Source of the DNA: Candidatus Parvarchaeota archaeon
GTDB taxonomy: Archaea > Nanobdellota > Nanobdellia > JAFCGN01 > DAOVEB01
Reading direction: 5' to 3'
NCBI GenBank assembly: GCA_030669205.1
Contig: DAOVEB010000004.1
Coordinates: forward strand, 1-33,945
DNA length: 33,945 bases
Below the pieces are notes generated by a model, which was not told the origin of the DNA, made no database searches, and saw only the letters and a list, made by a program, of their open reading frames with translations. Both the position numbers and the translations under genes were made by a program. This document shows, piece by piece, positions 3,301 to 25,600 of the stretch. Within the stretch, counting starts at the first letter, position 1. Each line of letters starts with the position of its first letter.

Positions 3301-4230
3301 ATGATGAACGTGACCGTGGATGTGAAGGGTCTGACCAAGAGGTTCGCGGATAGGGGTAAAAGGATTACCGTGCTCAACAGGGTGACATTTGATGCGAAGA
3401 GGAGTCAGATCTTCGCCATAATAGGGCCGAATGCCAGCGGAAAGACAACACTTTTGAAAGTACTCTCGACGATTTTCCTGCCTGATGGAGGTTCAGCAAG
3501 GATAATGGGTTATGATATAGTGAGGCAGGCCAAGAAGGTCAGGGAGGTCTCTAGTTTCACGTCACCAGCGCTCACCTTCCAGAAGAAATTGACGTTGAGG
3601 GAGGTTCTGAAGTTCTACGCCGGTACAATAAACAAGGACTTTGAGGCCGTGATACCGTTCCTCAACGAATGCGGCATGTACAAACTCCTTGACGAGAGCG
3701 TCGAGGGCTTTTCAGAGGGACAGAAGATGCTGACAAGGATTGCAATAGCGCTCCTCAAGGACCCGCAGGTCCTGATGCTGGACGAGCCAACAGCACCTTT
3801 GGACGCCCAGAAAAAGGAGTTTCTTATAAAGTTCCTGAGGAAGTACGCGGAGAACCGGACTCTGCTCGTGGTTGACCACAACCCCGACACAATAGGCCAG
3901 CTCTGCACAGACTTCCTCCTCTTGGCGCGGGGTGGCAAGGTTGTCAAGAAAGGGACCATGGACGAGTTCTTTGCGGGTTTTCCGTACCGCTTTGCCTTGA
4001 TTATAACACCCCGTGGCTTCGTGCCCACCAATGTGCTCAATGGTCTTGGCAAGCCGTACCAGAAGAATCCTGACGGAACAGTGTCGATACTCCTCAACGA
4101 AAGGGGGGAAGCCGAGGAGATGGTTAATTCGCTGATGAAGGATCACAAGAGGATAGTTGCCTCCTTTGAGACTTCTATAGTCACATGGCGCGAAGTGTAC
4201 AACTACTGGCTGAAGCAAGCAACTAGGTAA
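3301..4230 (+). CDS. ABC transporter ATP-binding protein
   Basis: Walker A GPNASGKT, signature FSEGQKM, Walker B VLMLDEPTAPLD. Confidence 0.92.
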   Translation: MMNVTVDVKGLTKRFADRGKRITVLNRVTFDAKRSQIFAIIGPNASGKTTLLKVLSTIFLPDGGSARIMGYDIVRQAKKVREVSSFTSPALTFQKKLTLREVLKFYAGTINKDFEAVIPFLNECGMYKLLDESVEGFSEGQKMLTRIAIALLKDPQVLMLDEPTAPLDAQKKEFLIKFLRKYAENRTLLVVDHNPDTIGQLCTDFLLLARGGKVVKKGTMDEFFAGFPYRFALIITPRGFVPTNVLNGLGKPYQKNPDGTVSILLNERGEAEEMVNSLMKDHKRIVASFETSIVTWREVYNYWLKQATR

Positions 4231-4669
4231 TCTTCTTTAACCTCTTTTCGCATCTTTTGAGCACCTCTTCACTCCTTTCCACAAACCCGTCCCTGTTTTC
4301 AACACTCTTTCCACGCAGCAGCTCGCCCACATGGATTATCTCCTTCAGCTCACGGAGTATCTCCTTCAGGTCTGAGGGTATCTTCCCCTTCTTTGCTGAG
4401 AACATCTTTTTGGACGAAAGCACAGAGTAGAACTCCTTTGGCAGTGTCCTCAACTTCTCTGAGGTCATCTCCGTTGTGGTCACAAAGTTCCAGAACTCGC
4501 TTAAGCCTGACAAAGTTTCGAATATTTCTTCTGAGTGCAGGGAACCCCTTATACTCCCTATCATCATCTGCACGCCAATGACCATAATCTTCTTTGACTT
4601 TATGAGAAGGCCTTGCCTGAACTTGTTTGCTGCTGTTCCGGCTGCCTTGGAACCCATATCATAAGTCAT
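4223..4669 (-). CDS. Hypothetical protein
   Basis: 148-aa ORF filling the gap between two confident genes; tail overlaps the ABC ATPase stop (convergent). Confidence 0.55.
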   Translation of the reverse strand: MTYDMGSKAAGTAANKFRQGLLIKSKKIMVIGVQMMIGSIRGSLHSEEIFETLSGLSEFWNFVTTTEMTSEKLRTLPKEFYSVLSSKKMFSAKKGKIPSDLKEILRELKEIIHVGELLRGKSVENRDGFVERSEEVLKRCEKRLKKIT

Positions 4670-4707: not shown

Positions 4708-5406
4708 ATGGAAGAAAGAGTGAAAACTTCAGTCAAAGGTCTTGACAAACTTATAGGCGGCGGGTTGATACCCGGCAGCGTCATGCTCATAGCAGGCAAG
4801 GCGGGGGCTGGGAAGACAATCATGTGCGCACAGTACATCTACAACGGCGCACTTGCAGGGGAGCCCGGACTTTACATAACAACAGAAGAGACTCCGGCCA
4901 AGATACGCAAGGACGTTGCAAATTTTGGCTGGGGCATCGGGAAGTTGGAGAAGGAGAAAAAGTTTGTAATCCTTGAAATAAGCCCTATGCGCCTCGCTGA
5001 GATGGAATCCATAATCAAGGAGGCGAAGAGGAAGTACAAGATACAGAGATGTGTGATAGACTCTCTGAGCGTATTTGCGCTCTACTTTGAGAAGCCGTTT
5101 GCAGCCAGGAAGAGGCTCTATTCCATCTTTAAGGTTGTAGAAGAGTTGGGTATAACCACCATAGTGACAGCTGAGATACCCGAAGACTCGAAGAGGTTGA
5201 GCAGGCTGGGTCTGGCAGAGTTCATGGCAGACGGTGTGATAGTCCTCCAGTACCTGCCAATGGGCAGGCAGTTCAAGAGGGCGCTGCAGATACGGAAGAT
5301 GCGGATGAGTGACCACAGCAAGAACATCCACCCGTTCCGGATAACAAAGGGGGGAATCGAGGTCTTTGCCCCGAAGATGCCAAAGGGTATGAAACTTGAA
5401 TTGTAA
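4708..5406 (+). CDS. KaiC-like RecA-superfamily ATPase (single domain)
   Basis: Walker A GKAGAGKT, Walker B RCVIDSLS, YITTEETP, C-terminal HSKNIHPFRITKGGIEVF. Confidence 0.88.
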   Translation: MEERVKTSVKGLDKLIGGGLIPGSVMLIAGKAGAGKTIMCAQYIYNGALAGEPGLYITTEETPAKIRKDVANFGWGIGKLEKEKKFVILEISPMRLAEMESIIKEAKRKYKIQRCVIDSLSVFALYFEKPFAARKRLYSIFKVVEELGITTIVTAEIPEDSKRLSRLGLAEFMADGVIVLQYLPMGRQFKRALQIRKMRMSDHSKNIHPFRITKGGIEVFAPKMPKGMKLEL

Positions 5407-5439
5407 CTTTTATTAACCTGTAACTGGTTTACCTTATAG

Positions 5440-8301
5440 ATGCGCCTGAAAACATTATTTGCAATATTAGCGGCATTAAACCTCGTTGGGGTTGCTTCAG
5501 GAACCACCTGGTGGAACACCAATTGGGGGTACAGGATGCAGTTCAACGTCTCTGCCGGCTCGTACGACAGGGAGAACCCGGTAGTCGTCTACAACATCAA
5601 CTTCACTGCGCTGTTGCACGGTGCCGGGGACTCTGCACAGTTTGATGAGAACTCCATAAGGCTCATAGACGACGGTACCTTGGCAGAGGTTCCGTACCAG
5701 TTTGACCAGTCACCCGACTTCAACGCCACGACAAACGCAGTTGGTAACCTCACCTTTGTGGCGACTGGCACAATCCCCTCTGGAAGCGTGAAACCTCACC
5801 ACCTCTACTTCGACTCAGGAAGCGGCAAATCCGCGCCCAGCTATAGCACGTCGTGGGGCAGCATATACACCCCCTCAAACAGGCTTGAAAACTCGGTTTT
5901 TCAGGCACAATGGGACCAGATCAGCAACTACGGCCCAGGCATGGTGGACCTTTTCATAAAGAGCTCCGGCCGCGACCAGTGCAACGAGAATGTGAACCAG
6001 TACGCGAGGGTCGATGCTTACAAGCCGGAGAACTTGGGATGGACAGCAACTGTCCAGTCAACATCACTTGAGAACGGCGTTGTCAGGAAGCGGATGCAAC
6101 TGCGATACGAGGGAGATGGTTATGGTATAACAGAGAATGTCACCCTGTATAGGGGTGGCACTTACCTCTTTGTTGAGGTCGAGCACAACGCCACACTCAT
6201 GACACTTGGATTTTATGGAACACCTGGCGGCGACGAGTCTGACGACATCACAGATAGTACCGTGAGTGGTACGGTTGGTAGCCACGACTATAGAGGGGTG
6301 TACGACAATGTCAATAGTGAGGGTTACGAACTTATTATAGGCAGGAACTACATAGATGTCTCCTCGTGGGCCGAGTTCAAAGGTCAGAGCAGATATGGCT
6401 TTGACTTGAACGTCACTTCCTCAACATTCAGTTGTTATATGATTGCAGTCACCTCCGGTTCATCAGAGATTCAGAGCTGGCCAGACAGGCTTCTGAATCC
6501 TGTGACAGTTGTGACGGGCTCGGTGATAGAGGGCCCGGTGTGCGGCGACGGCGTGTGCGAAGTTTCCAAGGGTGAGACAGAGTCAACGTGCTGGGACGAC
6601 TGCCACATAGTCGTCTGCGGCGACGGCATCTGCGAGGGTGACGAAGACGAGGAAACGTGCCCAACTGACTGTTTCATAAACATAGACATACAGCAGCCCT
6701 ACATCAACCAGCAGTATTCCCTTGGAGACGTGCTAAGAGTCAGGGCCAAGGCCACAACACCGAAGGGTCTTGACGTGCTTGACGCAACAGCGGTTGTGCA
6801 CGTCCCATTCGACACGCCTTACAGCGCGACCTTGAAGGATGACGGCAGCCACAATGACGCCTTTGCCAACGATGCGGTTTATGGTGAGGAGACAATCATC
6901 CAGTCGAGCGCTGGTGTGGGATTGTACAACCTCACGGTCAATGTCACAAAGTGGGGTGGGACATCCTCGGCGGGTGTGCAGATTGAGGTGAGGGATGCGC
7001 TGTCAACAACCGCAGCTGTCTCGAATACGACCTTTTACAAAGGCTATGAAATCTTGGTTTCAGGAAAGGTGAGCAGCCTCAGGGGCGTGATACGTGAAAA
7101 CGCCACGTTTGAAATCAGCTTCTCCAGCGGTTCTTGGAGGTTCACCGACACCTTTCAGACAGACAACTCAGGCGCGTTCATCTATATCTATCCCGTCTCC
7201 TTCGCTGAGCCTGACGGTGTGTGGGAGATAACACTCAGCGGCAATGATTCGTACGGCAACAGGCTGAACAAGACATTTGAAGTTGAGGTGATAACTCCCT
7301 CACAAATCCTTTACTATGGCGTTTACTTCTCGACAAGCCCTCTTTCGTCTTACACCCGCGGGGACGAGATACCTGTGAGTGTATTTGTGAGGAAGGGCGA
7401 CAATCCGGTTGAGGATGCAGATGTCTCATACAAAGACCCGGCAGGCATCAGGAGATTCCTTCGCGAGGTCACTCCAGGATACTACGAGGATACCTACACC
7501 ATTCCAATGAATTCGCCAATTAGACCCTGGACACTCGCCATTCAGGCAATCAAGTATGAGAACAACACCCTTCAGGCCGGTGCATCAAGTCCGTTCACAA
7601 TCAACATAACAGCGCTCCAGTTCGTATACGACCTGATTGAGCCAACCCGTTTTGTTTTCGTCGCAGGCGAGCAGATAACACTAACAATCAGCCTGCGATA
7701 CGCGAATGGGACACCTGTGACGGGTGCGACTGTGAAGACCGAGTCCCCCTCAGGCGAAATCCTCATCTTTGACGAAGGAGAGGTTTCTGGTTACTATACA
7801 AGGGTTTACACGCCCGGAAACTATGAAAACGGCTCATGGTCGCTCAACGTACTCGCAAAGGATTCAGATGAGAACTTCGCCATCATAGGCAGGGAGATAC
7901 TCATAAGGGAGAACCTCCCCCTCATACCACCTTGGGGCTGGATAATCATAGCAGGTGTGGTTTTGTCGTCCCTCATCTTCTGGAAGGTCAGTGGGGAGAG
8001 AAGATACTATCGCTGGAGATTCGCGAAGCTGAACTCTGAGAAGGAGAGAATTGAGACCATGAAAGGCATAGTTGAGGAGAGATACTTCAACCGTAGGATA
8101 GACGAGGAGACCTACACCAAGTTGATGAGGGACTATGAGGAACAGAGCGTGGATGTAATCTCAAAGCTTGCGGCCATACAGCAGAAAGCGAAGATCAGAA
8201 AGAAGCCGAAGAAAAAGAAAACCAAGAGGCGACCAAAGGAGGAGAAATCGCCAGAAAAGAAAGCTCCTTCTGAACAACAGGACCAGGAGGGCACCTTATA
8301 G
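5440..8301 (+). CDS. Large surface protein: signal peptide, DUF2341-like N-terminus, CGDGxC repeats, Ig/MG2-like domains, TM, cytoplasmic helix and Lys-rich tail
   Basis: N-terminus MRLKTLFAILAALNLVGVASG; TTWWNTNWGYRMQFNV; CGDGVCE...C..DC twice; TM WGWIIIAGVVLSSLIFW; C-terminal KKPKKKKTKRRPKEEKSPEKK. Confidence 0.82.
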   Translation: MRLKTLFAILAALNLVGVASGTTWWNTNWGYRMQFNVSAGSYDRENPVVVYNINFTALLHGAGDSAQFDENSIRLIDDGTLAEVPYQFDQSPDFNATTNAVGNLTFVATGTIPSGSVKPHHLYFDSGSGKSAPSYSTSWGSIYTPSNRLENSVFQAQWDQISNYGPGMVDLFIKSSGRDQCNENVNQYARVDAYKPENLGWTATVQSTSLENGVVRKRMQLRYEGDGYGITENVTLYRGGTYLFVEVEHNATLMTLGFYGTPGGDESDDITDSTVSGTVGSHDYRGVYDNVNSEGYELIIGRNYIDVSSWAEFKGQSRYGFDLNVTSSTFSCYMIAVTSGSSEIQSWPDRLLNPVTVVTGSVIEGPVCGDGVCEVSKGETESTCWDDCHIVVCGDGICEGDEDEETCPTDCFINIDIQQPYINQQYSLGDVLRVRAKATTPKGLDVLDATAVVHVPFDTPYSATLKDDGSHNDAFANDAVYGEETIIQSSAGVGLYNLTVNVTKWGGTSSAGVQIEVRDALSTTAAVSNTTFYKGYEILVSGKVSSLRGVIRENATFEISFSSGSWRFTDTFQTDNSGAFIYIYPVSFAEPDGVWEITLSGNDSYGNRLNKTFEVEVITPSQILYYGVYFSTSPLSSYTRGDEIPVSVFVRKGDNPVEDADVSYKDPAGIRRFLREVTPGYYEDTYTIPMNSPIRPWTLAIQAIKYENNTLQAGASSPFTINITALQFVYDLIEPTRFVFVAGEQITLTISLRYANGTPVTGATVKTESPSGEILIFDEGEVSGYYTRVYTPGNYENGSWSLNVLAKDSDENFAIIGREILIRENLPLIPPWGWIIIAGVVLSSLIFWKVSGERRYYRWRFAKLNSEKERIETMKGIVEERYFNRRIDEETYTKLMRDYEEQSVDVISKLAAIQQKAKIRKKPKKKKTKRRPKEEKSPEKKAPSEQQDQEGTL

Positions 8302-8922
8302 GAACTGCTCTTCAAGCACAATACCCCTCTTTTCTATGCTGAACTGGAGCAGTGAGGCTGGGCAGTCGTTCCTCACCTGCAAAAAATTGCCTGACTCTGT
8401 TCTCATGAAGTTTACAACAACGTTGCAGAGCTCCTTGAGGGTCTCAAACTCCTGTTTGTTATGCATATCCTCATCAACAACCACTGCCAGAGGGACTCCG
8501 ATAGCCTTGCACCTGTCAATTGTGGTCTGGAGGAACTTCACAATTCTTTCCAGTTCGTTGTAGAGCATGAGTGTTGAGAGCAGGTTGATGACAACCCTTG
8601 GTTTTCCCTTTTTCTTGACCAGGTCGTCCATAGCCATCGATATTTGCTCTAGGGCGGCGAGGCTTTCCACGTAGTCTGTGTTCTTGGTTCTCTTTCCGCT
8701 CTGAGCCGCTATGAAATGTGTCTCTATCTTCATGTTGAGGCCGGAGATGCGCCCCATTACGTCATCAACTGCCTCGGTTGAGACATAGATTCCCTTGTTT
8801 ATGAACTGCAGCACGTAGGTGTCGCGCGCCTTCTTTATCCCAGTCACCATCACAACTGTGTCATGATTGAATCCGCCACTGAGAAACCTGTCAAGACCCT
8901 TTATTCCCGTTGTCACCTTCAT
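8296..8922 (-). CDS. KaiC-like paralog with degenerate nucleotide-binding site
   Basis: Same N-terminal KxTTGIKGLDRFLSGGF and STEAVDDV as KaiC-like proteins, but Walker A reads GIKKARDT and Walker B reads RVVINLLS. Confidence 0.75.
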   Translation of the reverse strand: MKVTTGIKGLDRFLSGGFNHDTVVMVTGIKKARDTYVLQFINKGIYVSTEAVDDVMGRISGLNMKIETHFIAAQSGKRTKNTDYVESLAALEQISMAMDDLVKKKGKPRVVINLLSTLMLYNELERIVKFLQTTIDRCKAIGVPLAVVVDEDMHNKQEFETLKELCNVVVNFMRTESGNFLQVRNDCPASLLQFSIEKRGIVLEEQFL

Positions 8923-9716
8923 TTCTCTTCCCCAGTCAACTTCACTATTTCCATTCCGTCGTCTGTGATTTTTATCGGATGTATCTTGTCAGAGTGTTCG
9001 GTTCTCCTCATCTTGCGTATTAGCAACGCCCTTTTGTACTTCCTTGCGAGGCCGATGTACATCAGGGAGATTATCCCATCTGCTATAAACTCCACGACCC
9101 CGAACCTGCTCAATCCCTTACTTTCCTCAAGAACCTCGGCTGTTACAAGTGTTGTGAGCCCGAGCCGCTTGGCCTCGCGCAGAATCTTGTGGAACTCCTT
9201 CCGTGTTTTGTACTCGTCGCCCAGATAAAGCCCGAACATCGAAGCCGAGTCTATCACAAGCCGTTTTGCATCTATCTCCTTGGTCAATCTGCGCAGCAGC
9301 TGAGGCAACTTGGCCATCATGTCGGGTTCAAGTTGCAGGACTCTGAACCGGTTTTTCTTTATCAGTTTGAGCAAGTCCCAGCCGAACGACACGTTCATGT
9401 CGTTCAGCAGGTCAGCTGCTGTTTCCTCTGTTGAGACAAAGATGCCGTTTTCATTGTAGTCGATTACTCCTTTGTAGAGGAACTGTGACGTGAAGATGGT
9501 CTTTCCAGTTCCTGTCTTTCCGGATATCAACACAACAGAACGCGGCAGGTAACCACCCTCCATCCGTTCATCAAGCCCGACCACTCCGGTTTTCACACGT
9601 TTCTTTGACGTGATGAAGTAATCCTTTATGGAGGGCATGTAGACCTTCAACTTCTCCAGGAACTTCTTGTCGCTCTCGCCCGCAACCTCCTTGCTCAAAC
9701 TCTGTTTCTTTTTCAT
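8919..9716 (-). CDS. KaiC-like RecA-superfamily ATPase
   Basis: Walker A GKTGTGKT, Walker B RLVIDSAS, HSDKIHPIKITDDGMEI; 4-nt overlap with the next gene. Confidence 0.88.
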   Translation of the reverse strand: MKKKQSLSKEVAGESDKKFLEKLKVYMPSIKDYFITSKKRVKTGVVGLDERMEGGYLPRSVVLISGKTGTGKTIFTSQFLYKGVIDYNENGIFVSTEETAADLLNDMNVSFGWDLLKLIKKNRFRVLQLEPDMMAKLPQLLRRLTKEIDAKRLVIDSASMFGLYLGDEYKTRKEFHKILREAKRLGLTTLVTAEVLEESKGLSRFGVVEFIADGIISLMYIGLARKYKRALLIRKMRRTEHSDKIHPIKITDDGMEIVKLTGEEK

Positions 9717-10426
9717 CTGAACATCTTCTCCTTGGAGTATATCTTTATGCCATTTGGCATCATCTTGAATGGATGCATCCCCTTATCATGCGCGGTTCCG
9801 CGCATCTTGAGCACTTCAATAGCGCGTTGTCTTATGTTGCCTGAACGGAGGTTGTAAAGAAGGACTATCCCGTCGACAACGGATGTCGGCAACTTGCTCA
9901 GATTGACCTCTGGTGAGCTTGTGTCCACCTCAGATATCATGAAAAGGTTGGAGTTGGTCTCCTGAAGCTTTGTGACCAGGTTGTGGACTGCAACCCTCTT
10001 TTCAAACGGGTCCTTGTACAGGAGGTCAAAGACGTCCAGTGAGTCGATGACCAGGCGCCTGACCCCATACTCCTCAACCTTGTTGTACAGGAGGGAAGCG
10101 AGCGTCTCGCTACCTCCTAGTTTGTGCATCTGGAAAGGGTCCATGGTTATTATTATGACTTCCTTTTTTTCTTCCATCTTTTTGAGGTCCCACTTGAAGA
10201 CTTTCATAAATTCAAACAGTTTGTGTGGCGTGGTTTCAAGCGTGACAAACAGACCCTTTTCCTTGTACTTCTTCACGCCTTCGTGGAGCAGCTGCGTGCA
10301 GAATGTTGTCTTCCCGGAACCTGAACTTCCCGCGACGATACAGCTTATGCCCCTTGGCACTCCATTTTGGACCAGTTCGTCGAATCCCGGGATACCGGAA
10401 TGCATCCTGGACATCACCATAACCAT
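9713..10426 (-). CDS. KaiC-like RecA-superfamily ATPase
   Basis: Walker A GSSGSGKT, Walker B RLVIDSLD, HDKGMHPFKMMPNGIKIY; start set at MVMVMSRMHSGIPGFDEL; ATGA overlap with the downstream gene. Confidence 0.87.
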   Translation of the reverse strand: MVMVMSRMHSGIPGFDELVQNGVPRGISCIVAGSSGSGKTTFCTQLLHEGVKKYKEKGLFVTLETTPHKLFEFMKVFKWDLKKMEEKKEVIIITMDPFQMHKLGGSETLASLLYNKVEEYGVRRLVIDSLDVFDLLYKDPFEKRVAVHNLVTKLQETNSNLFMISEVDTSSPEVNLSKLPTSVVDGIVLLYNLRSGNIRQRAIEVLKMRGTAHDKGMHPFKMMPNGIKIYSKEKMFR

Positions 10427-10498: not shown

Positions 10499-11389
10499 AT
10501 GAGAAGGGTTGCAGTTGCTGTTGTAATTATATTGGTTGGAATTGCAGTGTATGAGATTCTCGCAACCACAACTCCTACAAGGGCGGTCTACCTCGCACTT
10601 CCAGCTGTGGAGGGTGTGGACGACAACTGCGTCTTCACAGACATAACCGACCTTGTTCAGTCAGGGGTCCTTGTCAACGATACCCTACATCCTTTCTCGG
10701 CTTATGAGTTAGTTTCACTTACATGCTCCGAGGACAATATGGAGTATAGTGTGATGATATACTTGGACGTTTCGCCATATGAGAGAAGGGATATAGAGAA
10801 CGCGCTTCCACAACCAGTAACCGTAATCTCAAACAGGAGTGTTTATCTGATCAGCGCCAACAACTACTTTGTACCTATTGCAAGTGAGTTTTACTTCTAC
10901 TCTTTCAGCAATGTGGAGGATCCTTACTTGGTCATCAATGACTCACTCAATTTGAGGAACTCGTACTCCTTGGACGAGGAGTTCTCCATGTTAGCAAGGA
11001 TTCCGGACAGAATAGGATATCTTGACCCAACCTTAAAATACGTGAAGGCTGAGTTTGGGACCAGCAGAAGCGTGACAAACAGAAGCGTGACAAAGGAATG
11101 GTATGTTGGGACAACCACAGATGCCTCAACAATAGCGTATATCATACTCAAGGAACCAAAAGATCCAGACCGGATTCTCGGCTGTACCAATGAGAATTCG
11201 ACATACGCCAACGTGACCACACCCGCCGGCATCCTTTATACATGCAACTACGGCAACATGTGCGGTCCGAAGTACCTTATAATGGAAAACTCCTTTGCGT
11301 ACACACATATGCAGATGGTCTGCGAATCGGTTGAGGACGTCTTCACAACAGCTGTTTTGGAAAGGGTTATGGACCGCTCTGGTCGCTGA
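10499..11389 (+). CDS. Membrane-anchored extracytoplasmic protein of unknown function
   Basis: N-terminal TM VAVAVVIILVGIAVYEIL, several N-x-S/T sites and Cys residues; divergent from the KaiC-like operon. Confidence 0.65.
   Translation: MRRVAVAVVIILVGIAVYEILATTTPTRAVYLALPAVEGVDDNCVFTDITDLVQSGVLVNDTLHPFSAYELVSLTCSEDNMEYSVMIYLDVSPYERRDIENALPQPVTVISNRSVYLISANNYFVPIASEFYFYSFSNVEDPYLVINDSLNLRNSYSLDEEFSMLARIPDRIGYLDPTLKYVKAEFGTSRSVTNRSVTKEWYVGTTTDASTIAYIILKEPKDPDRILGCTNENSTYANVTTPAGILYTCNYGNMCGPKYLIMENSFAYTHMQMVCESVEDVFTTAVLERVMDRSGR
11065..11094 (+). repeat. Perfect tandem duplication of 15 nt (cagaagcgtgacaaa x2), in frame
   Basis: Read directly; encodes SRSVTNRSVTK. Confidence 0.95.
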
Positions 11390-14163: not shown

Positions 14164-14384
14164 GGGTCATAATACAAACAACCAGGAAACGCATTGAGAG
14201 GGTGCTCAACTTTGATGGCACTGTCTCTGAACTAGTCCATAGGCTCAATCCCAACCTCAGCGAAACACTTTTCTCTGATATGGGAAAGGAGCTGTACACT
14301 ATACTTGTGGACGGGAGGAGAGCAGAGATGGACTCGAATGTTGGTGAGACTGTCTCAATCCTTCCTGTCATAACAGGAGGCTGA
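14160..14384 (+). CDS. MoaD/ThiS-like (ubiquitin-like) sulfur carrier protein
   Basis: 74 aa; GETVSILPVITGG ends in the diagnostic C-terminal Gly-Gly; overlaps tpiA stop (ATGA) and the oxidoreductase start. Confidence 0.82.
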   Translation: MRVIIQTTRKRIERVLNFDGTVSELVHRLNPNLSETLFSDMGKELYTILVDGRRAEMDSNVGETVSILPVITGG

Positions 14385-16309
14385 TGCGGATGAAAGAAGT
14401 CATAGTTGATGTTAGGAAAAAGAAGGCGGAGGTCAGAAACTCTGACTCAGTCGGGCCGATAGATTTTGCGCTGAGGAGACATGATGAGCTGAAATCCCAC
14501 GACTGCGACGTCTACAACCCAAGGAACGCGCTTTGCTTTGGTGGCGGGCAACTTCTCCAGTACAACATCCCTGGAACACACCGGCTCATAACAGCTGCGC
14601 GCTCCCCCTTGTGGACTGGTTTCTACATCAGTTCAATGGGTGGCTTTGCCATCAATCTCGCCTATGCAGGCATAAACTACATCAGTGTGGAAAGCAAGGG
14701 CAAGAAGTTCTCGCTCATCGGAATCAAGGGTGAAAAGGGAAGAGTCACCACCAAGTTCATCGAAGTCAAGAAGGAGCAGCTCGATGACATCTACTTCCGC
14801 GGCTTTGGCGGCCAGCGCGGGCTCTGGGCAGTGCAGAACTACGCCTACGAGGCGCTCAAGCGCTGGTATGGCGGTTCCAAGTTCCGCGTCATCGCCACTG
14901 GTCCAGCGTCGCTCTACTCCCGTATGGGGTGCCTGTGCTCAACTGTTATATCAAATGACAGGTTCCAGTTCGGCCAGGATGACTTCGCCGGACGCGGAGG
15001 GCTTGGCTCACTGATGGTTCAGGGCCATCGTGTCTTTGCAGTTGTTGTTGGCGGGAATAACGAGGTCAAGAGCTTTGACAAGGCCAAGCTGGACAAAATC
15101 TACGCCAAGACTGGTAAAAAGCCTGCACAGGCCTGGAAGGACGCCACAGAGAAGTACAGGTACATCCCAGACCTTAAGACAGGCGGGACCTATGGCGTCA
15201 ACTTCACCAAGTTACAGGACAAGTGCCTCATGTTCAACTGGAAATCGAGTTTCATGACCAGAAAATCCAGGCAGAAGATTTACGAGCGCCTCATAAGGCC
15301 CGGAATCCTTGAGCCATTCAACAGGGAGGTTATAGAGACCAAGTCGTGGTTCAACTGTGGCGAGCCATGTCCTGGGGTCTGCAAGAAGCGCCACATAACA
15401 AAGAAGATAGACTACGAACCATATTCATCTGCAGGGCCAAACATGGGGGTATTCAACTTTAGAGATGTAGAGTCTGTGGTTCACCGCATAGACACCCTCG
15501 GCTTCGATGCAATTGAGTTCGGCACAATCGCTTCTTGGATTCTCGAGTGCCTTGACAACGGACTGTTGAAATCAACAGATTTTTTCCTTGATGTGGAGAC
15601 GACCTTTGACCCGGAGAAGTTCATGAAGAAAGCGGGTGAATACTCGTGCAAGAACGCGCTCTTCATCCGTCACCTTGCCTACATGGTTGTGGCGCGTGAC
15701 GGTATTGGTGAGGCGGTTGCAGAGGGTATGCGAATAGGTGCGCGCAAGCTGGACAAGATGTTTAAGGACAGGCTCAAAGGCAAGAGTTTCAAGGACTTTG
15801 CAGTGTATCTGGCACATGGCAAGGACGGCTCACTTGCTCCGTCGCAGTACTGGGCACCAGGACTCTTCGCACCGATTCCGCTGCCGCACCTTTCCAAGAC
15901 CTACTACAAGATGGACATCTGGGACCCTGTTGAGCTTGGGAAGGGCATAGCAAAGCGCTACGTGACTGAGCTGGGAATAGATGAGCTTGGAATCTGCAGG
16001 TTCCACCGCGGCTGGGCCGAAAAGGTTGGAGGTGACCTAATGATGGAGGTTTCAGGAATCGACCTTGAGGACCACGCACGAGGACTGGGCAGGAGGATTC
16101 TCGACTACAACAAGAAGGCAGGCGCGCAACCGGTGTTCTGGGAGAGCAGGCGGGTGAAGGACATAATCTATAATTATCTCATTGACTTCAACAGCATCTC
16201 ACCGAACAAGGAGCTGGGTAACTGGGTGCACAGGTTTGGAAATAGCCTGGACGTCAACGCACGCAAGTACTGGAGCAAAATCAGGGACAGTTTCGAGGCA
16301 GCTGTCTAG
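14384..16309 (+). CDS. gor: Tungsten-dependent AOR-family oxidoreductase, most like glyceraldehyde-3-phosphate:ferredoxin oxidoreductase (GAPOR)
   Basis: RHDELKSHDCDVYNPRN, TGGTYGVNF, CGEPCPGVCKKRH, GFDAIEFG, GICRFHRGWAEKV resemble recalled Pyrococcus GAPOR; adjacent to tpiA. Confidence 0.85.
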   Translation: MRMKEVIVDVRKKKAEVRNSDSVGPIDFALRRHDELKSHDCDVYNPRNALCFGGGQLLQYNIPGTHRLITAARSPLWTGFYISSMGGFAINLAYAGINYISVESKGKKFSLIGIKGEKGRVTTKFIEVKKEQLDDIYFRGFGGQRGLWAVQNYAYEALKRWYGGSKFRVIATGPASLYSRMGCLCSTVISNDRFQFGQDDFAGRGGLGSLMVQGHRVFAVVVGGNNEVKSFDKAKLDKIYAKTGKKPAQAWKDATEKYRYIPDLKTGGTYGVNFTKLQDKCLMFNWKSSFMTRKSRQKIYERLIRPGILEPFNREVIETKSWFNCGEPCPGVCKKRHITKKIDYEPYSSAGPNMGVFNFRDVESVVHRIDTLGFDAIEFGTIASWILECLDNGLLKSTDFFLDVETTFDPEKFMKKAGEYSCKNALFIRHLAYMVVARDGIGEAVAEGMRIGARKLDKMFKDRLKGKSFKDFAVYLAHGKDGSLAPSQYWAPGLFAPIPLPHLSKTYYKMDIWDPVELGKGIAKRYVTELGIDELGICRFHRGWAEKVGGDLMMEVSGIDLEDHARGLGRRILDYNKKAGAQPVFWESRRVKDIIYNYLIDFNSISPNKELGNWVHRFGNSLDVNARKYWSKIRDSFEAAV

Positions 16310-16311
16310 TC

Positions 16312-17274
16312 TCACCCTCTCAGAAGTTTGGCCACCTTCTCCGGCCTGATTGTGTTGACCTTGGTTCCGTAGCCCAGTTCAACAGAGGCCTCGGTCTTCA
16401 ACCTGGGCTGGATACCCACGTGCAGATGGAACTCAGCCTCCAGCCTGTTTGGCAGGTGATGGATGAACATGTTGAACGGGAAGTTGCCAATTGTCCTGAA
16501 CATCGCCTTTATCGTGCGTTCAATTATGTCTGCGAAAAGCTTGATGTTGATGTCACTGATGTCCGAGAGATGGTCCTTTGGCAGCACCCAGAGCTCGAAT
16601 GGGTAGCGCGCGCAGAATGGGGAGAGGGTTATGAACTTTTTGTTCTCGAACACAAGCCTCTCACCTTCCTGTTCCTTTTCCACTATGTCACAGAAGGGAC
16701 AGCTGAAGCACTTTTTGGTGTAGTCAGCGATGGTTGATATGTCTTTCATCACACGGGTCGGCAAAAAGGTAGTTGCGAGTATCTGGGAATGGGAGTGGAC
16801 CAGCGAAGCGCCTCCGGCCTTACCATAGTTTTTGAATAACATCACATACTGGATGTTTGGTCTGTTTATGAGGTCCTCATAGCGCTCCCTGTACATTCTG
16901 AAAACTCCCACAAACTCGGACTTTGAGAAATCCTGCCACTGTCTGTTGTGGTACGGGGTTTCCACAAAAACCTCATGGAAGCCGTACCCACTCATCCTTT
17001 TCAGCAGTTTGTTCTCCTTCTGCGTGAACTTCACACCACCCTCAAGTAGCGGGAATTTGTTGTTGAAGACCCTCAACCTCCAGTTCTTACGTGGGACCTG
17101 CACTATGGTCGGCGGCGTCATATGCTCATTTCCCTTGCAGAAGGGACAGTTCTCATCGACCTTCTCCGCTGGCAGGATGATTTTCTCCTTGACGAAATCG
17201 TGCGGTCGCAGCGTCCTCTTCTCGGATATTATGACTTGCTCTGTTGAGAAGTAGTGGTCTCTGACCTCCATCAC
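16312..17274 (-). CDS. galT: GalT-like hexose-1-phosphate nucleotidylyltransferase (HIT superfamily)
   Basis: CPFCKGNEHMTPP, LVHSHSQILA, FSCPFCDIV, FPFNMFIHHLP; ATGA overlap with the glycogen synthase gene. Confidence 0.87.
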   Translation of the reverse strand: MMEVRDHYFSTEQVIISEKRTLRPHDFVKEKIILPAEKVDENCPFCKGNEHMTPPTIVQVPRKNWRLRVFNNKFPLLEGGVKFTQKENKLLKRMSGYGFHEVFVETPYHNRQWQDFSKSEFVGVFRMYRERYEDLINRPNIQYVMLFKNYGKAGGASLVHSHSQILATTFLPTRVMKDISTIADYTKKCFSCPFCDIVEKEQEGERLVFENKKFITLSPFCARYPFELWVLPKDHLSDISDINIKLFADIIERTIKAMFRTIGNFPFNMFIHHLPNRLEAEFHLHVGIQPRLKTEASVELGYGTKVNTIRPEKVAKLLRG

Positions 17275-19124
17275 CTGCTCACCGCCATCTCATAAGCCTT
17301 TTTGTAGTATTTGATGAGTTCCTTCCAGTTGTCCTTTTCAGCTATCTTCCTCGCGTCTTTCTTGAGCCCGAGCAATTCGTCCCTGTTCATCTGCGAAACC
17401 TCGCTGAAGACCCCGTACAACTGTCGCACTATCTCCTTGTTGGTCTTCCCGTCCATCATGAGAACTCGTATTCCACGTTTTGACATGTCGCCGAAGTTCT
17501 CCAGGAGGAACTGCCCGTAACCTGACAGGTCAGATGCAACCGCCAAGTTCATAAGAGCTGCTGATTCGACAGGGGTGTAGCCCCAGGGTTCATATCTGGA
17601 AGGGAAAACGCCCATGTCCATGGCGTTCACAACAGAGTAGTATGACATGTTGAGGAGACCATCCCCTGGTTTTATGTAAGTCGGGTAAAAGACCACCTTC
17701 ACCCTGTCCTTTTTCCTGTTTCCTAGGCCGTTGTCTTGGAGAGAGTCGATTATCAGGTCTGAGTGGTTGTGCATCTCGAATGTGCTCAGCGGCGCATCTC
17801 CCACGGTTTTCAACCCCTTGAACAGATTGGTTGACTCCTTTATCAGCCGCTCATTCTTCCAGCTGTGGTTCTTTATGGAGTTGTCTGCGATGCTTCTCAT
17901 CAGAGCAATCTCTTCGTCCCTTATGACCTCCTCGAACCTCTTGGCCTTGTCTATTGCCTTACCTTCACTGAAGATTACCTCGTCCTGTCTTTTGTGCACA
18001 ACCTTCTTGATGTTGTCCAGTATCCGGTCAACTGCAGACAGATTCCGCGTCACCTCTGGCCTAATTCCCTTCACACCAGCAGGCACGAAGATGAAGGCAA
18101 AAACGTTCCGTTTTGCGGTTCTGTTCAGTTTTCCCAGGGCTTCTATGAAGACGTCTATGCCCTTGTTCTCGAACTCATATCTCCCTGAAATGAAGGCGAA
18201 CAGCGCGTCTTTGCAGTTGAGGTCGTAGTACGGGAGGAAATATGTGTATAGGAAATTCTCTACCTCCACCCTCCTTTCTTCCTGGCTTTTCATGATTGAG
18301 GGAATGTCGCCGAATCTGGAGAAGTCCAGACCATTGGGCGTTATCAGAGCTGGTTTCACGCCCAGTATGTAATGTGACTCCATTCCGACGACTTTGGAAA
18401 CAGTTGTGAAGACATCAGCCTCAGCAGCGCAGACACTTTCCATCAGGTGTTTTCCTTCAACCTTGTACTTGAAGGCCTCCTGGATGTTGACTGAAGAACC
18501 GCGTTTCAGACCAGCAGACACCTCACGCATGAGGTTGCCTTCCCAGGCAGACTTGGTTCTTCCAAGGGTTGTCGCGTGGGTTGTGAACACGGTTTTGACG
18601 TGTGACCCCTTGTCCTTGAGGTACAGCAGACCAGCACCGCTTATCCACTCGTGGAAGTGAGCAATTGCTTTCTTTCCTTTGGCCAGTTCTTCCACAAGCA
18701 CGCCGGCTGCGTGGGACCAGCCTACGTTGAGGGTGAAGTCCCATGGCATCATGAGGGAATCTATCCTGTACTTTTCCCACAGCCCGGTCTTTATCAGGTC
18801 CACACGCTTCTTGCCATCAACAGTCTCATTCATGAATGAGGTGGCGTCAAGGAGCATCAACTTGGCGTCGCTCCCGTGCGTCCATCTTCCATAGTGGCAG
18901 TGTATCCCCAAGGAGCTCAGTTTTTTACAAGCCCTTGAAATTTCACCTGGCATCTTCATCCTCTCCAGTTCGGTCTTTGCAGACGACTCATTGTAAAAGC
19001 CGATCAGATGATATGATTTGCCAAAGGCTCTCGTCATTTCCAATGACTTGCTCTGAAGAACTGTGTATATGCCGCCAACCTTGTTTCCGGCCTCTGAGGA
19101 AACTTCAAAAAGGAGGTCAACCAT
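17271..19124 (-). CDS. Glycogen synthase, GT3 (animal/fungal-like) family
   Basis: FEVSSEAGNKVGGIYTVLQSK, AHFHEWISGAGLLYLK, TVFTTHATTLGRT, FPSRYEPWGYTPVESA. Confidence 0.88.
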   Translation of the reverse strand: MVDLLFEVSSEAGNKVGGIYTVLQSKSLEMTRAFGKSYHLIGFYNESSAKTELERMKMPGEISRACKKLSSLGIHCHYGRWTHGSDAKLMLLDATSFMNETVDGKKRVDLIKTGLWEKYRIDSLMMPWDFTLNVGWSHAAGVLVEELAKGKKAIAHFHEWISGAGLLYLKDKGSHVKTVFTTHATTLGRTKSAWEGNLMREVSAGLKRGSSVNIQEAFKYKVEGKHLMESVCAAEADVFTTVSKVVGMESHYILGVKPALITPNGLDFSRFGDIPSIMKSQEERRVEVENFLYTYFLPYYDLNCKDALFAFISGRYEFENKGIDVFIEALGKLNRTAKRNVFAFIFVPAGVKGIRPEVTRNLSAVDRILDNIKKVVHKRQDEVIFSEGKAIDKAKRFEEVIRDEEIALMRSIADNSIKNHSWKNERLIKESTNLFKGLKTVGDAPLSTFEMHNHSDLIIDSLQDNGLGNRKKDRVKVVFYPTYIKPGDGLLNMSYYSVVNAMDMGVFPSRYEPWGYTPVESAALMNLAVASDLSGYGQFLLENFGDMSKRGIRVLMMDGKTNKEIVRQLYGVFSEVSQMNRDELLGLKKDARKIAEKDNWKELIKYYKKAYEMAVSR

Positions 19125-19154
19125 ACTGGCCTTACAAGAACTCCGGACATTTAA

Positions 19155-19481
19155 CTATTTTGATATTTCCCTGATGCGCCTGTCTATTGCTGATACGATT
19201 TTCCTCTTCATTTCAAGCCAGTTCTTCGCCTTCAGCCCCTCTATCTTCAGCGCCAACTTGTTGTCCCCTATTGTGTCTTCAATCCAGTGGACGAAGTCGC
19301 TGCTACCTCCCCTCATATGGTAGGCAACCACCGTCTCGTCCGAGTCTTTCAGACAGGTCGAGAGCTCTTTGAGCGACCTTGGAACACATATCACCTTGTG
19401 GTCAGACCTCTTGAGCCAGAAGCCCTGATGCTCTGGCACGGTTCTCACGATTCTTTTTGCAAGGCTGTTTATACGAGCCAT
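19155..19481 (-). CDS. DUF5752-like small protein
   Basis: VVAYHMRGGSSDFVHWIEDTIGDNKLALKIE resembles the family core as recalled; located in the glycogen cluster. Confidence 0.5.
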   Translation of the reverse strand: MARINSLAKRIVRTVPEHQGFWLKRSDHKVICVPRSLKELSTCLKDSDETVVAYHMRGGSSDFVHWIEDTIGDNKLALKIEGLKAKNWLEMKRKIVSAIDRRIREISK

Positions 19482-19574
19482 GGTTAAAGTGTCAAAACAG
19501 TTAAATTTAAATATTTGCCTTTTGAACCATCAATTGTCGATAACTATAACAATATGTTATGTAAGGGGGTTGAA

Positions 19575-20207
19575 ATGAAAAACAAGAGAGTAATGTTTCT
19601 GACGTGGGAATATCCGCCTAGAAACCTTTCCCCCATATCAAGATACTGCAGGGACCTGTCAGTCAAAATCTCCAGCGAGATGGACGTGATAGTCGTGACA
19701 TTCGACGACTGGAAAGCCTCAAAGTCCAGTTTCAAGATGGATGGTGAGGGTCTGTACATCTTCTACGTGGAGAACTCGATAAAGAACACGCCTTCACCGC
19801 TGATGTGGAGCCTCACGCTCTCATCTGATATGGAACGTGTGGCATCGGAGGTCTTCTACGAACTTGACGGAAAGGTCGATTTAATCCACGCAAATGACTG
19901 GATAACCTTCCCAACCGCCATAGCCCTCAAGAAAGCCTTCAGAAAGCCGTTGGTGGTCACGCTCCACTCAATTGAGCCCACCCGTGTCGCTGGCTCTGAC
20001 CCTTATATTGAGGCCATAAAGAAAATCGAGTGGCAGGGAACTTATGAGGCAGACAGGGTTCTTGTGAACAGCCTCTGGATGAAGGACAAGGTCATGCAGT
20101 ACTACAACGTTCCGGGTGCCAAGATGGACGTCTGCACCCCTGACTGGAACGGCTGGTCAGCAGATGTTTTGAAGTCGTACAGGAGGATACTGGGAGGGAA
20201 GAAATGA
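19575..20207 (+). CDS. Glycosyltransferase GT4/GT5-type N-terminal (acceptor) domain only
   Basis: Start at MKNKRVMFLTWEYPPRN preceded by gggggt; aligns by eye with the N-terminal half of the next gene and stops at the inter-domain hinge; ATGA overlap with that gene. Confidence 0.75.
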   Translation: MKNKRVMFLTWEYPPRNLSPISRYCRDLSVKISSEMDVIVVTFDDWKASKSSFKMDGEGLYIFYVENSIKNTPSPLMWSLTLSSDMERVASEVFYELDGKVDLIHANDWITFPTAIALKKAFRKPLVVTLHSIEPTRVAGSDPYIEAIKKIEWQGTYEADRVLVNSLWMKDKVMQYYNVPGAKMDVCTPDWNGWSADVLKSYRRILGGKK

Positions 20208-21421
20208 GGATACTCCATCTCTCCTGGGAGTTCCCGCCAAAGAAGATTGGCGGGCTCGCAACAGCCCTACACGGTCTCGTCGGGGCCCAGGCACAGAAGC
20301 ATGAAGTCCATGTAGTAACCTGCGGCTTTGACGGATGCAAGCCTTATGAGAGAAAGGGGAAACTCCACATCCACAGGTTTGACTCCAACATTCCGAGCAA
20401 GGACTTCCTGAGCTGGGCCCTTTCCATGAATATGTACATGAAGATGAGCGCAGCAGACGTCATCAACAAGTACGGCAAGTTTGACCTGGTCCATGCCCAC
20501 GACTGGCTGTCTGCGCTCGCAGCGTTCTTCGTCAAGTACACCTACCGCGTCCCGCTCGTATCCACAATCCACTCAACTGAGCATGGCAGGAGGCAGGGAG
20601 TCCACGAGAGTTATCAGAGGGTCATACATGACGTTGAATCAAAGCTTGTATACGAGTCCTGGAGGGTCATCACATGCTCACACTTCATGAAGTACCAAGT
20701 GATGGACGTTTTCAACTGCCCCGGCGACAAAATAGACGTAGTTGGGAACGGCGTGCTGCTCGAGCAGTTCACAGAGGAGTTCAACTGGGAGGAGGTCAAG
20801 TCCAGGTTCGCACTGCCGCATGAGAGAATCATACTCTTCGTCGGACGGATGGTGCCTGAGAAGGGCTGCGACGTCCTTGTGGGTGCGGCTCGTTTTGTTC
20901 TCCCACATCATCCGAATGTGAAGTTCATCTGCGTTGGCAGCGGGTATATGCGCGACAAATACCTTGACGACTCCAGGTTTCTGGGCGTTCACGACAAGTT
21001 CTACTTTCCGGGTTACATAGATGACAGGACGCTCCATGCGCTCATGCGAGTTGCTGACGCGGTTGTTGTGCCTTCAAGATACGAACCATTCGGCATAGTT
21101 GCGCTCGAGGCCATGGCTGCCAGGACACCTGTTGTTGTGTCGGACACAGGCGGTCTCTCAGAGGTGGTTGAACATGATAAAGACGGGCTGAAGGTCTGGG
21201 CCGGACACTCCGAATCCCTAGCATGGGGTATAAACAGGGTTTTGGGTGACCATGGCCACTCACAGTGGCTGGTATCGAACGCCTTTGAGAAGGTGAAGAC
21301 AGTGTTCAACTGGAAAATGGCTGCTGGGAAAACCGATGAAATATACACGCGCGTTCTATCCGAGTACCATGTCAACAGATGGAAACCCAAGATTCCCATA
21401 GACATGAGCAGCCACAGCTAG
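20204..21421 (+). CDS. Full-length glycosyltransferase (GT4/GT5, glycogen/starch synthase-like)
   Basis: LHLSWEFPPKKIGGLATAL, LVHAHDWLSALAAF, IILFVGRMVPEKG, VVPSRYEPFGIVALEAMAARTPVVVSDTGGLSEVV. Confidence 0.92.
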   Translation: MRILHLSWEFPPKKIGGLATALHGLVGAQAQKHEVHVVTCGFDGCKPYERKGKLHIHRFDSNIPSKDFLSWALSMNMYMKMSAADVINKYGKFDLVHAHDWLSALAAFFVKYTYRVPLVSTIHSTEHGRRQGVHESYQRVIHDVESKLVYESWRVITCSHFMKYQVMDVFNCPGDKIDVVGNGVLLEQFTEEFNWEEVKSRFALPHERIILFVGRMVPEKGCDVLVGAARFVLPHHPNVKFICVGSGYMRDKYLDDSRFLGVHDKFYFPGYIDDRTLHALMRVADAVVVPSRYEPFGIVALEAMAARTPVVVSDTGGLSEVVEHDKDGLKVWAGHSESLAWGINRVLGDHGHSQWLVSNAFEKVKTVFNWKMAAGKTDEIYTRVLSEYHVNRWKPKIPIDMSSHS

Positions 21422-22629
21422 CCCATACCGTTTGTTATCTTCCACTTTATGTCAGAGACTATCCTGTGGATTGTGTAGAAGCCGTCCTCAGCTGTTCCGA
21501 AGGGCGAGAAATAGGTGTGGACATCCCCGTCACCCCATCCCTTGGTGCAGAGGTAATAGAGATGGTCGCTGTTCTGCAAGTATCTCCAGACTTTCTTCAT
21601 CTCCTTGTTGTTAGAGACGTCGACCCAGTGCTTGAGTGCCTTTATCTCCTCATACGCGTGCTGCTGCATCCGGTTTCCCAACCATGCCGAGGTGTCGCGC
21701 TCCATGTCCGCCCAGGATATTGTGTTGTACTCGAAGACGTCCAGCCCACCTCGCGCCGGAAGGGTCAAACACCTGCGTGGGGTCGTGAACTTCAGATTCT
21801 TCCGCTTCGAAATCTCGAACGGGAGCGAACCCAAAAACCATAGTATACCCGTGTCCTTCCAGTGGTGCTCGCCAAAGGTCTCGTAGTCTATGAAGATGTT
21901 GACCACTTCGCCGGGTGTTGACGCGAGCCATGCAGCGTATTTCTCTGCTGTGAGCGGCCACTCCTCCCACCACCTGGCGCTGAACCTGTAGCCGATGTCG
22001 TCGCTGAGCTTGTAGTTCCTGAGGAATATCTTTATGTCGTTCTCGACGTGGCCTGGTGGGGTATACAGATAGTTCGGGGATTTCCACCCGTCAAGCAGGT
22101 GGTCGCATCCTTCTGCGAAGATGCCACGGAAACCCAGACCTGCAACTGTCTTGGCCACCATGTTGTTGTAGATGAGCTCAGTGTTCTCGAAGACAATAGG
22201 TCTCTGGCCAAAAAGGTCCTTCGTCCGTTCCCTGTGCATCTCCACCTGTTCAACAAACTCCTCCCGTTCAGTTCCCCAAAGGCTTGCAAGCGAGTGATAG
22301 TATGTCTGGCCGAGGAACTCCACACAACCCGTGTCAGCAAGCTGCTTGAAACTTTCGAGCACATCGGAGTTGAACATCTCGCACTGGTCAAGGAATACAC
22401 CCGAAATCGAGTATGTGACGCGGAACTTCTTTCCCAGGTTGTCTATGGCGTTCAGAACTGCTGCGTTCGCAGGCAGGTAACACTTGTGCGCGACCTTGTT
22501 GAAGATGTTCTCATTCTTCTTCATGTCAAAGTAGTGGTCTATGAGACTGTCGCTCTTCACGTCAGGATTGAAGTGCGCCTTGAGTCTGAGGGGCTGATGA
22601 ACCTCAAAGCACAGGTTTATACGGGTCAT
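21418..22629 (-). CDS. GH57 alpha-amylase-like glycoside hydrolase
   Basis: CFEVHQPLRL, FLGQTYYHSLASL, VFENTELIYNN, FIDYETFGEHHW. Confidence 0.9.
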   Translation of the reverse strand: MTRINLCFEVHQPLRLKAHFNPDVKSDSLIDHYFDMKKNENIFNKVAHKCYLPANAAVLNAIDNLGKKFRVTYSISGVFLDQCEMFNSDVLESFKQLADTGCVEFLGQTYYHSLASLWGTEREEFVEQVEMHRERTKDLFGQRPIVFENTELIYNNMVAKTVAGLGFRGIFAEGCDHLLDGWKSPNYLYTPPGHVENDIKIFLRNYKLSDDIGYRFSARWWEEWPLTAEKYAAWLASTPGEVVNIFIDYETFGEHHWKDTGILWFLGSLPFEISKRKNLKFTTPRRCLTLPARGGLDVFEYNTISWADMERDTSAWLGNRMQQHAYEEIKALKHWVDVSNNKEMKKVWRYLQNSDHLYYLCTKGWGDGDVHTYFSPFGTAEDGFYTIHRIVSDIKWKITNGMG

Positions 22630-24482: not shown

Positions 24483-24504
24483 ATCCTTATCATCCTACCA
24501 CAAC

Positions 24505-24518
24505 TTTTTATATATATT
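24505..24518 (+). promoter_or_regulatory. TATA box for SIS-domain gene (leaderless configuration)
   Basis: tttttatatatat located about 25 nt upstream of the ATG at 24536. Confidence 0.6.
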
Positions 24519-24535
24519 AGTTGTTCCGGTCCCTG

Positions 24536-25600
24536 ATGGACTCGACTGACATGAAACAGCAGATAATGGAGCAGGGAAAGTCCGCACTGATGAGCCTCGA
24601 GCAATCAAAGGACGAGATAACGGAGGTTGCACGCTCGCTGAAGGACTTTGACAGGTTCATCTTCTCCGGCGCAGGGGACAAGTACATAGTACCCCTCATC
24701 TCACAGTTTCTATGGCGCAGGCTTTCTGACAGACCTGTCGACGTCATCCATTCCAGAACCCTCGCGGACTACGTACCGAAATATGTGGACAAGAAAACCT
24801 GTTGCATCTTCCTGACACAGTCTGGCAAAACAAGGGACACGCTGGACGCCATAAAAGAGGTGAAGCGCAAGGGGGCGAGGTGCATAGCCATAACCAATCT
24901 TAAAGGGGACGGCGGAGTTCATGAGATGTGCGACATCATCCAGACGCATACCGTGACCTACCCTGAGAGGGCCACGCCCTCTACCGGAACCTTCCAGGCG
25001 TCGCTGGCAGTTCTGAACCAGCTCATCATCGAGGCCTTCGGCACAGAGGCGTGGGCGGATGCGCACATGGAAATCCTGCACACCGTTGACAGGCTCTCCA
25101 CTGACAATAAACTTATGTCATGGTCGGAGAAGACGGCAGAGGAAATGATGAAGTATGACGGGACGTCCTTCTACTTTCTTGGTGATGGGCCGCGTTATCC
25201 CGTTGCCAGAAAAGCCGCGATGATAATGTGGTATGAGGGGGCGAAACACGACGCCTGCAGCGTTGAGACAGAGGACTTTGTCCATTCGCTCATTGAGACA
25301 CTGGAGGAGGAGAACAAGTCGAAGAAGCCACTTGTTCTGCTTCAGCCGCTGCCAGCGCACCTCAGTGAGTTCTCCCGTGACCAGTTGCAGAAAATAAAAA
25401 AGATGTGGTCAGAGAGGGCGCCGCTGTTCATCGTCAACCCGTTTGAGTTCTGCAACGCGCCGGGTGGTGAGATGGGCGACCTGCTCTCGCCAGCTCTTTA
25501 CGGAGTCCAGACAGTATGGCTTTCATACCACTTCGCACTCAAACGCGGTGTAGACCCTGGGCTAACCCGCATGGTGGGCAAGATAAGAAGCGGCTCTTAA
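24536..25600 (+). CDS. SIS-domain sugar-phosphate isomerase, GlmS-isomerase-like, without amidotransferase domain
   Basis: FLTQSGKTRDTLDAIKEVKRKGARCIAITN and GDGPRYPVARKAAMIMWYEGAKHDA resemble the two SIS subdomains of GlmS; ATG chosen over TTG by TATA distance. Confidence 0.8.
   Translation: MDSTDMKQQIMEQGKSALMSLEQSKDEITEVARSLKDFDRFIFSGAGDKYIVPLISQFLWRRLSDRPVDVIHSRTLADYVPKYVDKKTCCIFLTQSGKTRDTLDAIKEVKRKGARCIAITNLKGDGGVHEMCDIIQTHTVTYPERATPSTGTFQASLAVLNQLIIEAFGTEAWADAHMEILHTVDRLSTDNKLMSWSEKTAEEMMKYDGTSFYFLGDGPRYPVARKAAMIMWYEGAKHDACSVETEDFVHSLIETLEEENKSKKPLVLLQPLPAHLSEFSRDQLQKIKKMWSERAPLFIVNPFEFCNAPGGEMGDLLSPALYGVQTVWLSYHFALKRGVDPGLTRMVGKIRSGS

Follow-up and report, generated by a model that had tools for sequence, protein, structure and literature searches.

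KaiC-family genes beside large surface proteins with a shared membrane-proximal tail: a candidate surface-coupled module of DPANN archaea

The window, i.e. the whole 33,945-nucleotide stretch analysed here, represents contig C43 of a Candidatus Parvarchaeota archaeon genome of 0.91 Mb in 68 contigs. It carries four KaiC-family genes that flank the gene of a 953-aa single-TM surface protein (Table 1). All five open reading frames were confirmed at the coordinates of the initial annotation, and Pfam matches and hydropathy agree with its description of four KaiC-like genes around a surface protein with one TM segment and a basic cytoplasmic tail. The ATGA coupling it had proposed for KaiC-B, -C and -D was read directly (B/C overlap at 9713-9716, C/D overlap at 8919-8922), and so was their tail-to-tail arrangement with the surface gene, which is convergent to KaiC-D with a 6-bp overlap at 8296-8301 involving the surface gene's stop codon. 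KaiC-A ends 33 bp upstream of the surface gene's ATG on the same strand, and both are therefore probably co-transcribed in a single transcript. Two genes without a Pfam match border the block, one (4223-4669, minus strand) for a helical-looking 148-aa protein and divergent from KaiC-A, the other (10499-11389, plus strand) for an exported 296-aa orphan and divergent from KaiC-B.

Table 1. Coordinates in the window of the KaiC-family genes, the surface protein gene and features of its tail.
Feature	Position	Strand	Description
KaiC-A	4708..5406	+	232 aa; Walker A GKAGAGKT, TEET, VIDS and KMR all intact
Large surface protein	5440..8301	+	953 aa; beta-rich ectodomain, one TM, ~105-aa basic cytoplasmic tail
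TM segment of surface protein	7921..7983	+	residues ~828-848, by hydropathy
Cytoplasmic hairpin core VEERYFNRRIDEETYTKLMRDYEE	8071..8142	+	residues ~878-901; motif common to KaiC-linked surface proteins
KaiC-D	8296..8922	-	208 aa; putative inactivated KaiC-like protein, DUF7504/DUF835-like; without Walker A Lys and Walker B Asp
KaiC-C	8919..9716	-	265 aa; motifs intact; N-terminal ~38-aa basic extension
KaiC-B	9713..10426	-	237 aa; intact Walker A and VIDS; another residue in place of the second catalytic Glu

All four KaiC-family proteins scored above the membership cut-off of Pfam family KaiC (PF06745; 26.6 bits), with 222.9 bits for KaiC-A (E = 4.6e-66), 203.7 for KaiC-C (3.6e-60), 174.3 for KaiC-B (3.4e-51) and 32.0 for KaiC-D (1e-7). 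Walker A and Walker B are intact in A, B and C; A and C moreover keep the KMR motif and the two Glu residues that follow strand 2, the second of which is lost in B (LETTP versus TEETP). The P-loop of KaiC-D reads GIK-KARD in place of GxxGxGKT, its Lys and Thr being gone, Walker B reads VVINL in place of hVIDS, and the KMR motif is absent. As judged by sequence, KaiC-D is probably no working ATPase. Its AF2 model (pLDDT 83, pTM 0.81) found its best PDB matches in KaiC, PH0284 and FlaH (4yds), and it passed the cut-off for DUF7504 (30.3 bits; cut-off 27) and missed that for DUF835 (30.6 bits; cut-off 33.1). Given that the nucleotide-binding motifs are lost yet the predicted fold remains that of KaiC, we class KaiC-D as an inactivated KaiC of DUF7504/DUF835 type; sequence and model together place it within the definition of iKaiC, a KaiC fold with lost nucleotide-binding motifs. 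The initial description of four KaiC-like ATPases thus stands for A, B and C, and falls for D. KaiC-C is the orthologue of a protein encoded at L076:11329-12153 (52% identity). Two better known assignments were rejected for the set: circadian clock KaiC, as these are single domains, not two fused, and the best circ_KaiC score was 130.8 against an equivalog cut-off of 546; and ArlH (NF052589), for which A, C and B scored 62.6, 65.9 and 46.0 bits against an equivalog cut-off of 215 and D had no listed match.

The surface protein starts with a hydrophobic signal-like segment, followed by an ectodomain with a beta-rich N domain of the WWNTxWxYR type, CGDGxCE Cys motifs and MG2-like beta domains. 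Structure prediction for the N-terminal 367 residues reached a pLDDT of just 49 from 4 sequences, so that the ectodomain is described here simply as beta-rich. The WWNTxWxYR domain also occurs in 1700-1800-aa proteins of the source genome and of one related genome. Ectodomains vary among homologues of the surface protein, and what is kept is the TM segment and a cytoplasmic hairpin with the core YFxRxIDEETYxxLMRxYE, which reads YFxRxIDxxTF/Y in a profile of TM plus hairpin. This profile (A5/A8) matched residues 832-913 of the window protein with E = 1.7e-20, the window protein itself being one seed row of the profile. A Pfam search with the tail alone returned no curated family. The same tail is found on further surface proteins of the source genome, namely two on contig C44 and one in the window (30365-32608, minus strand; 747 aa, MG2-like), with weaker matches on contigs C27 and C24. 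No KaiC gene lies within 19 kb of the second tailed protein of the window.

We compared the block with relatives of the same class. In G016 (Nanoarchaeota MAG DPANNHV_H2.bin.89), which belongs to a different family, the gene set of the window recurs in an altered layout, as a surface-C-D-B operon whose genes all share a strand, separated by a 10-bp gap or overlapping by 4 bp. In G006 (Ca. Jingweiarchaeum tengchongense), three KaiC-like genes lie beside the surface gene, of which one is divergent and clusters with D in the tree, although its P-loop is kept. The synteny check suggested with the initial annotation hence found the block co-conserved in both genomes. When 378 class genomes were searched with a C-terminal profile, further near-full-length matches came only from G248 and G214, and KaiC is adjacent in both (4-bp overlap and 12 bp); many other class genomes share only TM and tail with the window protein. 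The TM-and-tail-only loci encode a giant exported protein, a partner of ~300-450 aa that is also exported and has that tail too, and an active KaiC, to which a dead KaiC of ~175 aa is often added. The locus on contig C44 of the source genome combines two genes for tailed proteins and two for KaiCs with those of a PAS/GAF histidine kinase, a receiver and a further degenerate KaiC. The surface protein is absent from the nearest relatives, G001 and G002. In one locus of G002 (L088; G002:C11:12000-31900), a relative from the window's order in which the tailed protein is missing, pilin-like genes lie next to a KaiC and a degenerate KaiC, and a T2SSE ATPase is encoded 2 kb past the end of the stretch.

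Searching with the TM-and-tail profile revealed tailed surface proteins in 30 further class genomes, the three profile-seed genomes being left out. An active KaiC was located within 5 kb of a TM-and-tail protein in 22 of these 30 genomes, compared with 0.85 expected from KaiC density (P about 2.5e-30 in an independence model, a value that overstates independence as the genomes share ancestry). In the remaining 8 no active KaiC lay within 5 kb of a tailed protein, and in 2 of the 30 no KaiC was found anywhere. Presence of KaiC anywhere in the genome was likewise enriched among tail genomes (28/30; Fisher P 2e-5). As a control, 20 PKD surface proteins, mainly from KaiC-bearing class genomes, were inspected, and none had a KaiC on the fetched stretch. 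In the reverse direction, 20 class KaiC loci chosen solely by high KaiC score had no tailed neighbour and several were pilus-linked; a high KaiC score by itself does not pick out the tail-linked KaiC type. TM and tail, rather than surface location as such, mark the KaiC-linked proteins.

The association extends beyond the class. A scan for the KaiCs most like A and C over genomes of 84,980 species yielded 16 loci, some of them near-identical pairs, on Aenigmatarchaeota, Nanohaloarchaeota and other DPANN contigs, where KaiC starts at most 62 bp after, or overlaps, the gene of a tailed exported protein. These exported proteins usually measure 1100-3300 aa where complete, and their TM and tail (TEKxYFxRxIDxxTFxxIM) match those of the window protein. 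A second KaiC often comes next on the opposite strand (L201, L209-L212, L225). Whole-genome searches of 19 such genomes gave 14 strong tail genes, most of which KaiC adjoins (L285/L271 included). The functional link that the initial annotation had drawn between KaiC genes and surface protein is thus supported at the level of gene linkage: this linkage is conserved in three or more DPANN phyla, and what the linked proteins have in common is, as had been guessed, the TM with its cytoplasmic tail. In genomes of other DPANN phyla, 122-140-aa proteins with one or two TMs show a weaker hairpin match and no adjacent KaiC (L294-L297).

A tree built from 170 KaiC domains places A and C in the tail-linked set of Aenigmatarchaeota and Nanohaloarchaeota (support 97), and B in the tail-linked set of Nanoarchaeia (support 90). 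The clade with A and C and the clade with B are separate, and both are rich in tail-linked genes. KaiC-D lies near other degenerate forms on long branches, which leaves its exact placement unsure. The label 'tail-linked' requires 20 changes on the tree versus 46.6 in shuffles. Pilus-linked KaiCs belong mostly to other groups, one of which is close to the B group.

Taken together, we consider it fairly probable that the block represents one instance of a module widespread among DPANN archaea, which couples KaiC ATPases and their dead paralogue to the tail of a large surface protein. Since the linkage tracks the membrane-proximal tail, not the ectodomain, we infer that KaiC docks on the hairpin, which would serve as docking site for a soluble KaiC at the membrane. 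Those KaiCs that are active (A, B and C) may switch by ATP binding, hydrolysis or autophosphorylation, the KaiC proteins may form hetero-oligomers, and the dead paralogue D may act as a non-catalytic adaptor or cap. Contact or a ligand outside could set the state of KaiC inside and thereby address response regulators, or the state of KaiC could determine how active or how clustered the surface protein is. The job of the module is most likely cell-surface-coupled signalling or switching, in either direction. Signalling or switching is favoured over force generation because of the company in which these genes occur: active KaiC paralogues alongside dead ones, CheY-like receivers at 5 loci, a PAS-histidine kinase encoded by the source genome, dCache-HAMP sensors and hemerythrin-KaiC fusion. 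The data suggest an uncharacterised module for contact sensing or adhesion control. A more specific version, which we put forward tentatively and hold to be possible at best, would be a transmembrane contact system, with KaiC rings on the juxtamembrane hairpin of giant surface proteins reading or setting attachment to a host or another cell. If true, this would be an archaeal counterpart of receptor-coupled signalling, previously undescribed, in DPANN archaea.

Several features of the data bear on other explanations. The KaiC set might instead regulate a type IV pilus encoded elsewhere in the genome, a role that has been proposed for KaiC/ArlH-like proteins, the surface protein being a pilus-linked adhesin or a mere neighbour of this regulon. 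The operon of G016 has a T2SSE ATPase gene and two TadC genes at a distance of 2-3 kb, KaiC pairs stand beside type IV pilus genes in several Nanoarchaeia, the neighbour branch to KaiC-B is a clade with pilus-linked KaiCs, and an association of KaiC with type IV pili is already published (PMC4858521, PMC9563170). Yet no T2SSE motor ATPase and no TadC/ArlJ was found among the scanned window proteins, in line with the initial annotation, to which no archaellum or pilus genes were visible here, and an archaellum or type IV pilus locus was rejected for the window by the T2SSE plus TadC/ArlJ criterion. The T2SSE matches of the source genome are on other contigs, most tail-KaiC loci have no pilus genes, and the tail is present where no type IV pilus gene is near, including most loci of Aenigmatarchaeota and Nanohaloarchaeota, so that we regard pilus regulation as unlikely. 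Some findings count against the coupling of KaiC to the tail as well: tailed proteins with no KaiC close by, the 20 high-scoring KaiC loci that had no tailed neighbour, and the missing surface protein of G001 and G002. KaiC also occurs beside pilus genes and elsewhere, and is therefore not dedicated to the tail.

Control of expression is another reading, in which KaiC-B, -C and -D, staying in the cytoplasm, would influence how the surface gene is transcribed or translated, as GvpD does for gas vesicle genes, and would make no contact with its protein. It draws on the GvpD-like similarity of the KaiC domains, on an HTH gene in a few loci and on one tail-linked KaiC with a winged-helix-like N-terminal segment, seen by eye (L157:18181-19473, minus strand). 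It leaves unexplained, however, that the linkage follows TM and hairpin and not the ectodomain, which differs between phyla, and that no KaiC accompanied the PKD surface genes; we judge it quite improbable. Chance, or a gene order inherited within the lineage without function, could be invoked as KaiC genes are abundant in the source genome (16 PF06745 matches in 0.9 Mb) and the relatives share ancestry, but gene content is kept while order and strand change between families, the association recurs in other phyla, and both the density-corrected expectation and the PKD control speak against it, leaving it hardly credible. The coupling of KaiC to the surface-protein tail is the reading that we favour.

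The module can be compared with known systems. For archaea, signalling hubs built on KaiC-like ATPases and inactivated KaiC (iKaiC) proteins as partners have been published (Makarova et al. 2017, as cited in PMC5847659). Single-domain KaiC ATPases, dead KaiC-fold proteins of the DUF835/DUF7504 type and nearby receivers and kinases are common to both; measured against the hubs as known from outside the text of Makarova et al. 2017, the difference is a defined membrane partner here, i.e. large surface proteins sharing the TM-and-hairpin tail. ArlH is KaiC-like and binds ATP without hydrolysis, and its autophosphorylation ends binding of the motor ATPase (PMC8978795). It resembles the present proteins as an ATP-binding regulator of KaiC fold beside a membrane machine, and FlaH (4yds) is among the structural matches of KaiC-D; here, in contrast, there are no archaellum genes, A and C retain the catalytic Glu, and scores are 46-66 bits against 215. 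The analogy to the archaellum drawn in the initial annotation is thus a loose one, although in G016 type IV pilus genes lie close to the block, and ArlH would be the nearest mechanistic model for the module by analogy. The KaiC ATPases known from the vicinity of archaeal type IV pili (PMC4858521), with two kaiC genes in Tad clusters of Nanohaloarchaeota (PMC9563170), belong to a related KaiC clade, and both contexts meet in the one G016 locus, whereas the window and most tail-KaiC loci are without pilus genes. The SPEARE giant surface proteins of Nanohaloarchaeota, whose cytoplasmic part was described as type III restriction-like (PMC6642349), are likewise very long exported DPANN proteins with a C-terminal TM and a cytoplasmic end. 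The tail here is instead a short helical hairpin, and KaiC is absent from the text of PMC6642349; SPEARE membership was rejected for the window protein, with its ~105-aa helical basic tail and no type III restriction-like Pfam match.

Full-text literature searches returned no paper that treats KaiC together with tailed surface proteins, within a coverage that ends short of the likeliest place, Makarova 2017 (mBio). The proposed tail/KaiC module appears to be undescribed so far; gene linkage, motifs and the role of TM and tail as marker are direct observations. To our knowledge, a partner has been identified for only a minority of archaeal KaiC-like ATPases, and we know of no account of the means by which DPANN symbionts perceive or regulate contact between cells. 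A short tail motif linked to KaiC in several DPANN phyla offers a concrete partner pair that is testable without culturing the organism, and a search handle for further cases.

Some observations concern the surroundings of these loci. The pair of a giant exported protein followed by an exported partner of ~300-450 aa recurs in the window's class (L143, L144, L148-L151, L154, L156, L157, L161, L166), usually with a short overlap and with the same TM-and-hairpin tail on both, which suggests a two-subunit surface complex. A six-TM protein of ~190 aa is encoded near the tailed pair in 8 loci (L144:11061-11648, L165:5863-6453, L142, L145, L148, L160, L161, L167), and one member of this family matches PF09819 (ECF-type permease). 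Some KaiCs beside tailed proteins bear an input domain at the N-terminus, as does the winged-helix-like case of L157: the KaiC at L143:2-1405 (plus strand) has a hemerythrin domain there (Pfam 2e-12), and the KaiC at L149:4217-5596 (plus strand) a segment that by eye resembles the hemerythrin of L143. Further along the window, positions 14384-26694 encode an aldehyde ferredoxin oxidoreductase, glycogen synthase, GH57, a debranching enzyme, a SIS-domain protein and fructose-bisphosphatase, a compact glycogen/sugar phosphate set within a small archaeal genome. Finally, MinD/ParA-type ATPase genes at L078:12353-13099 (identified by Pfam) and L090:12353-13105 (by position and Walker motif) adjoin surface proteins of 1797 and 1712 aa, which have in common the N-terminal WWNTSW domain and a tail with a related hairpin; this may be a MinD-like version of the KaiC-tail arrangement.
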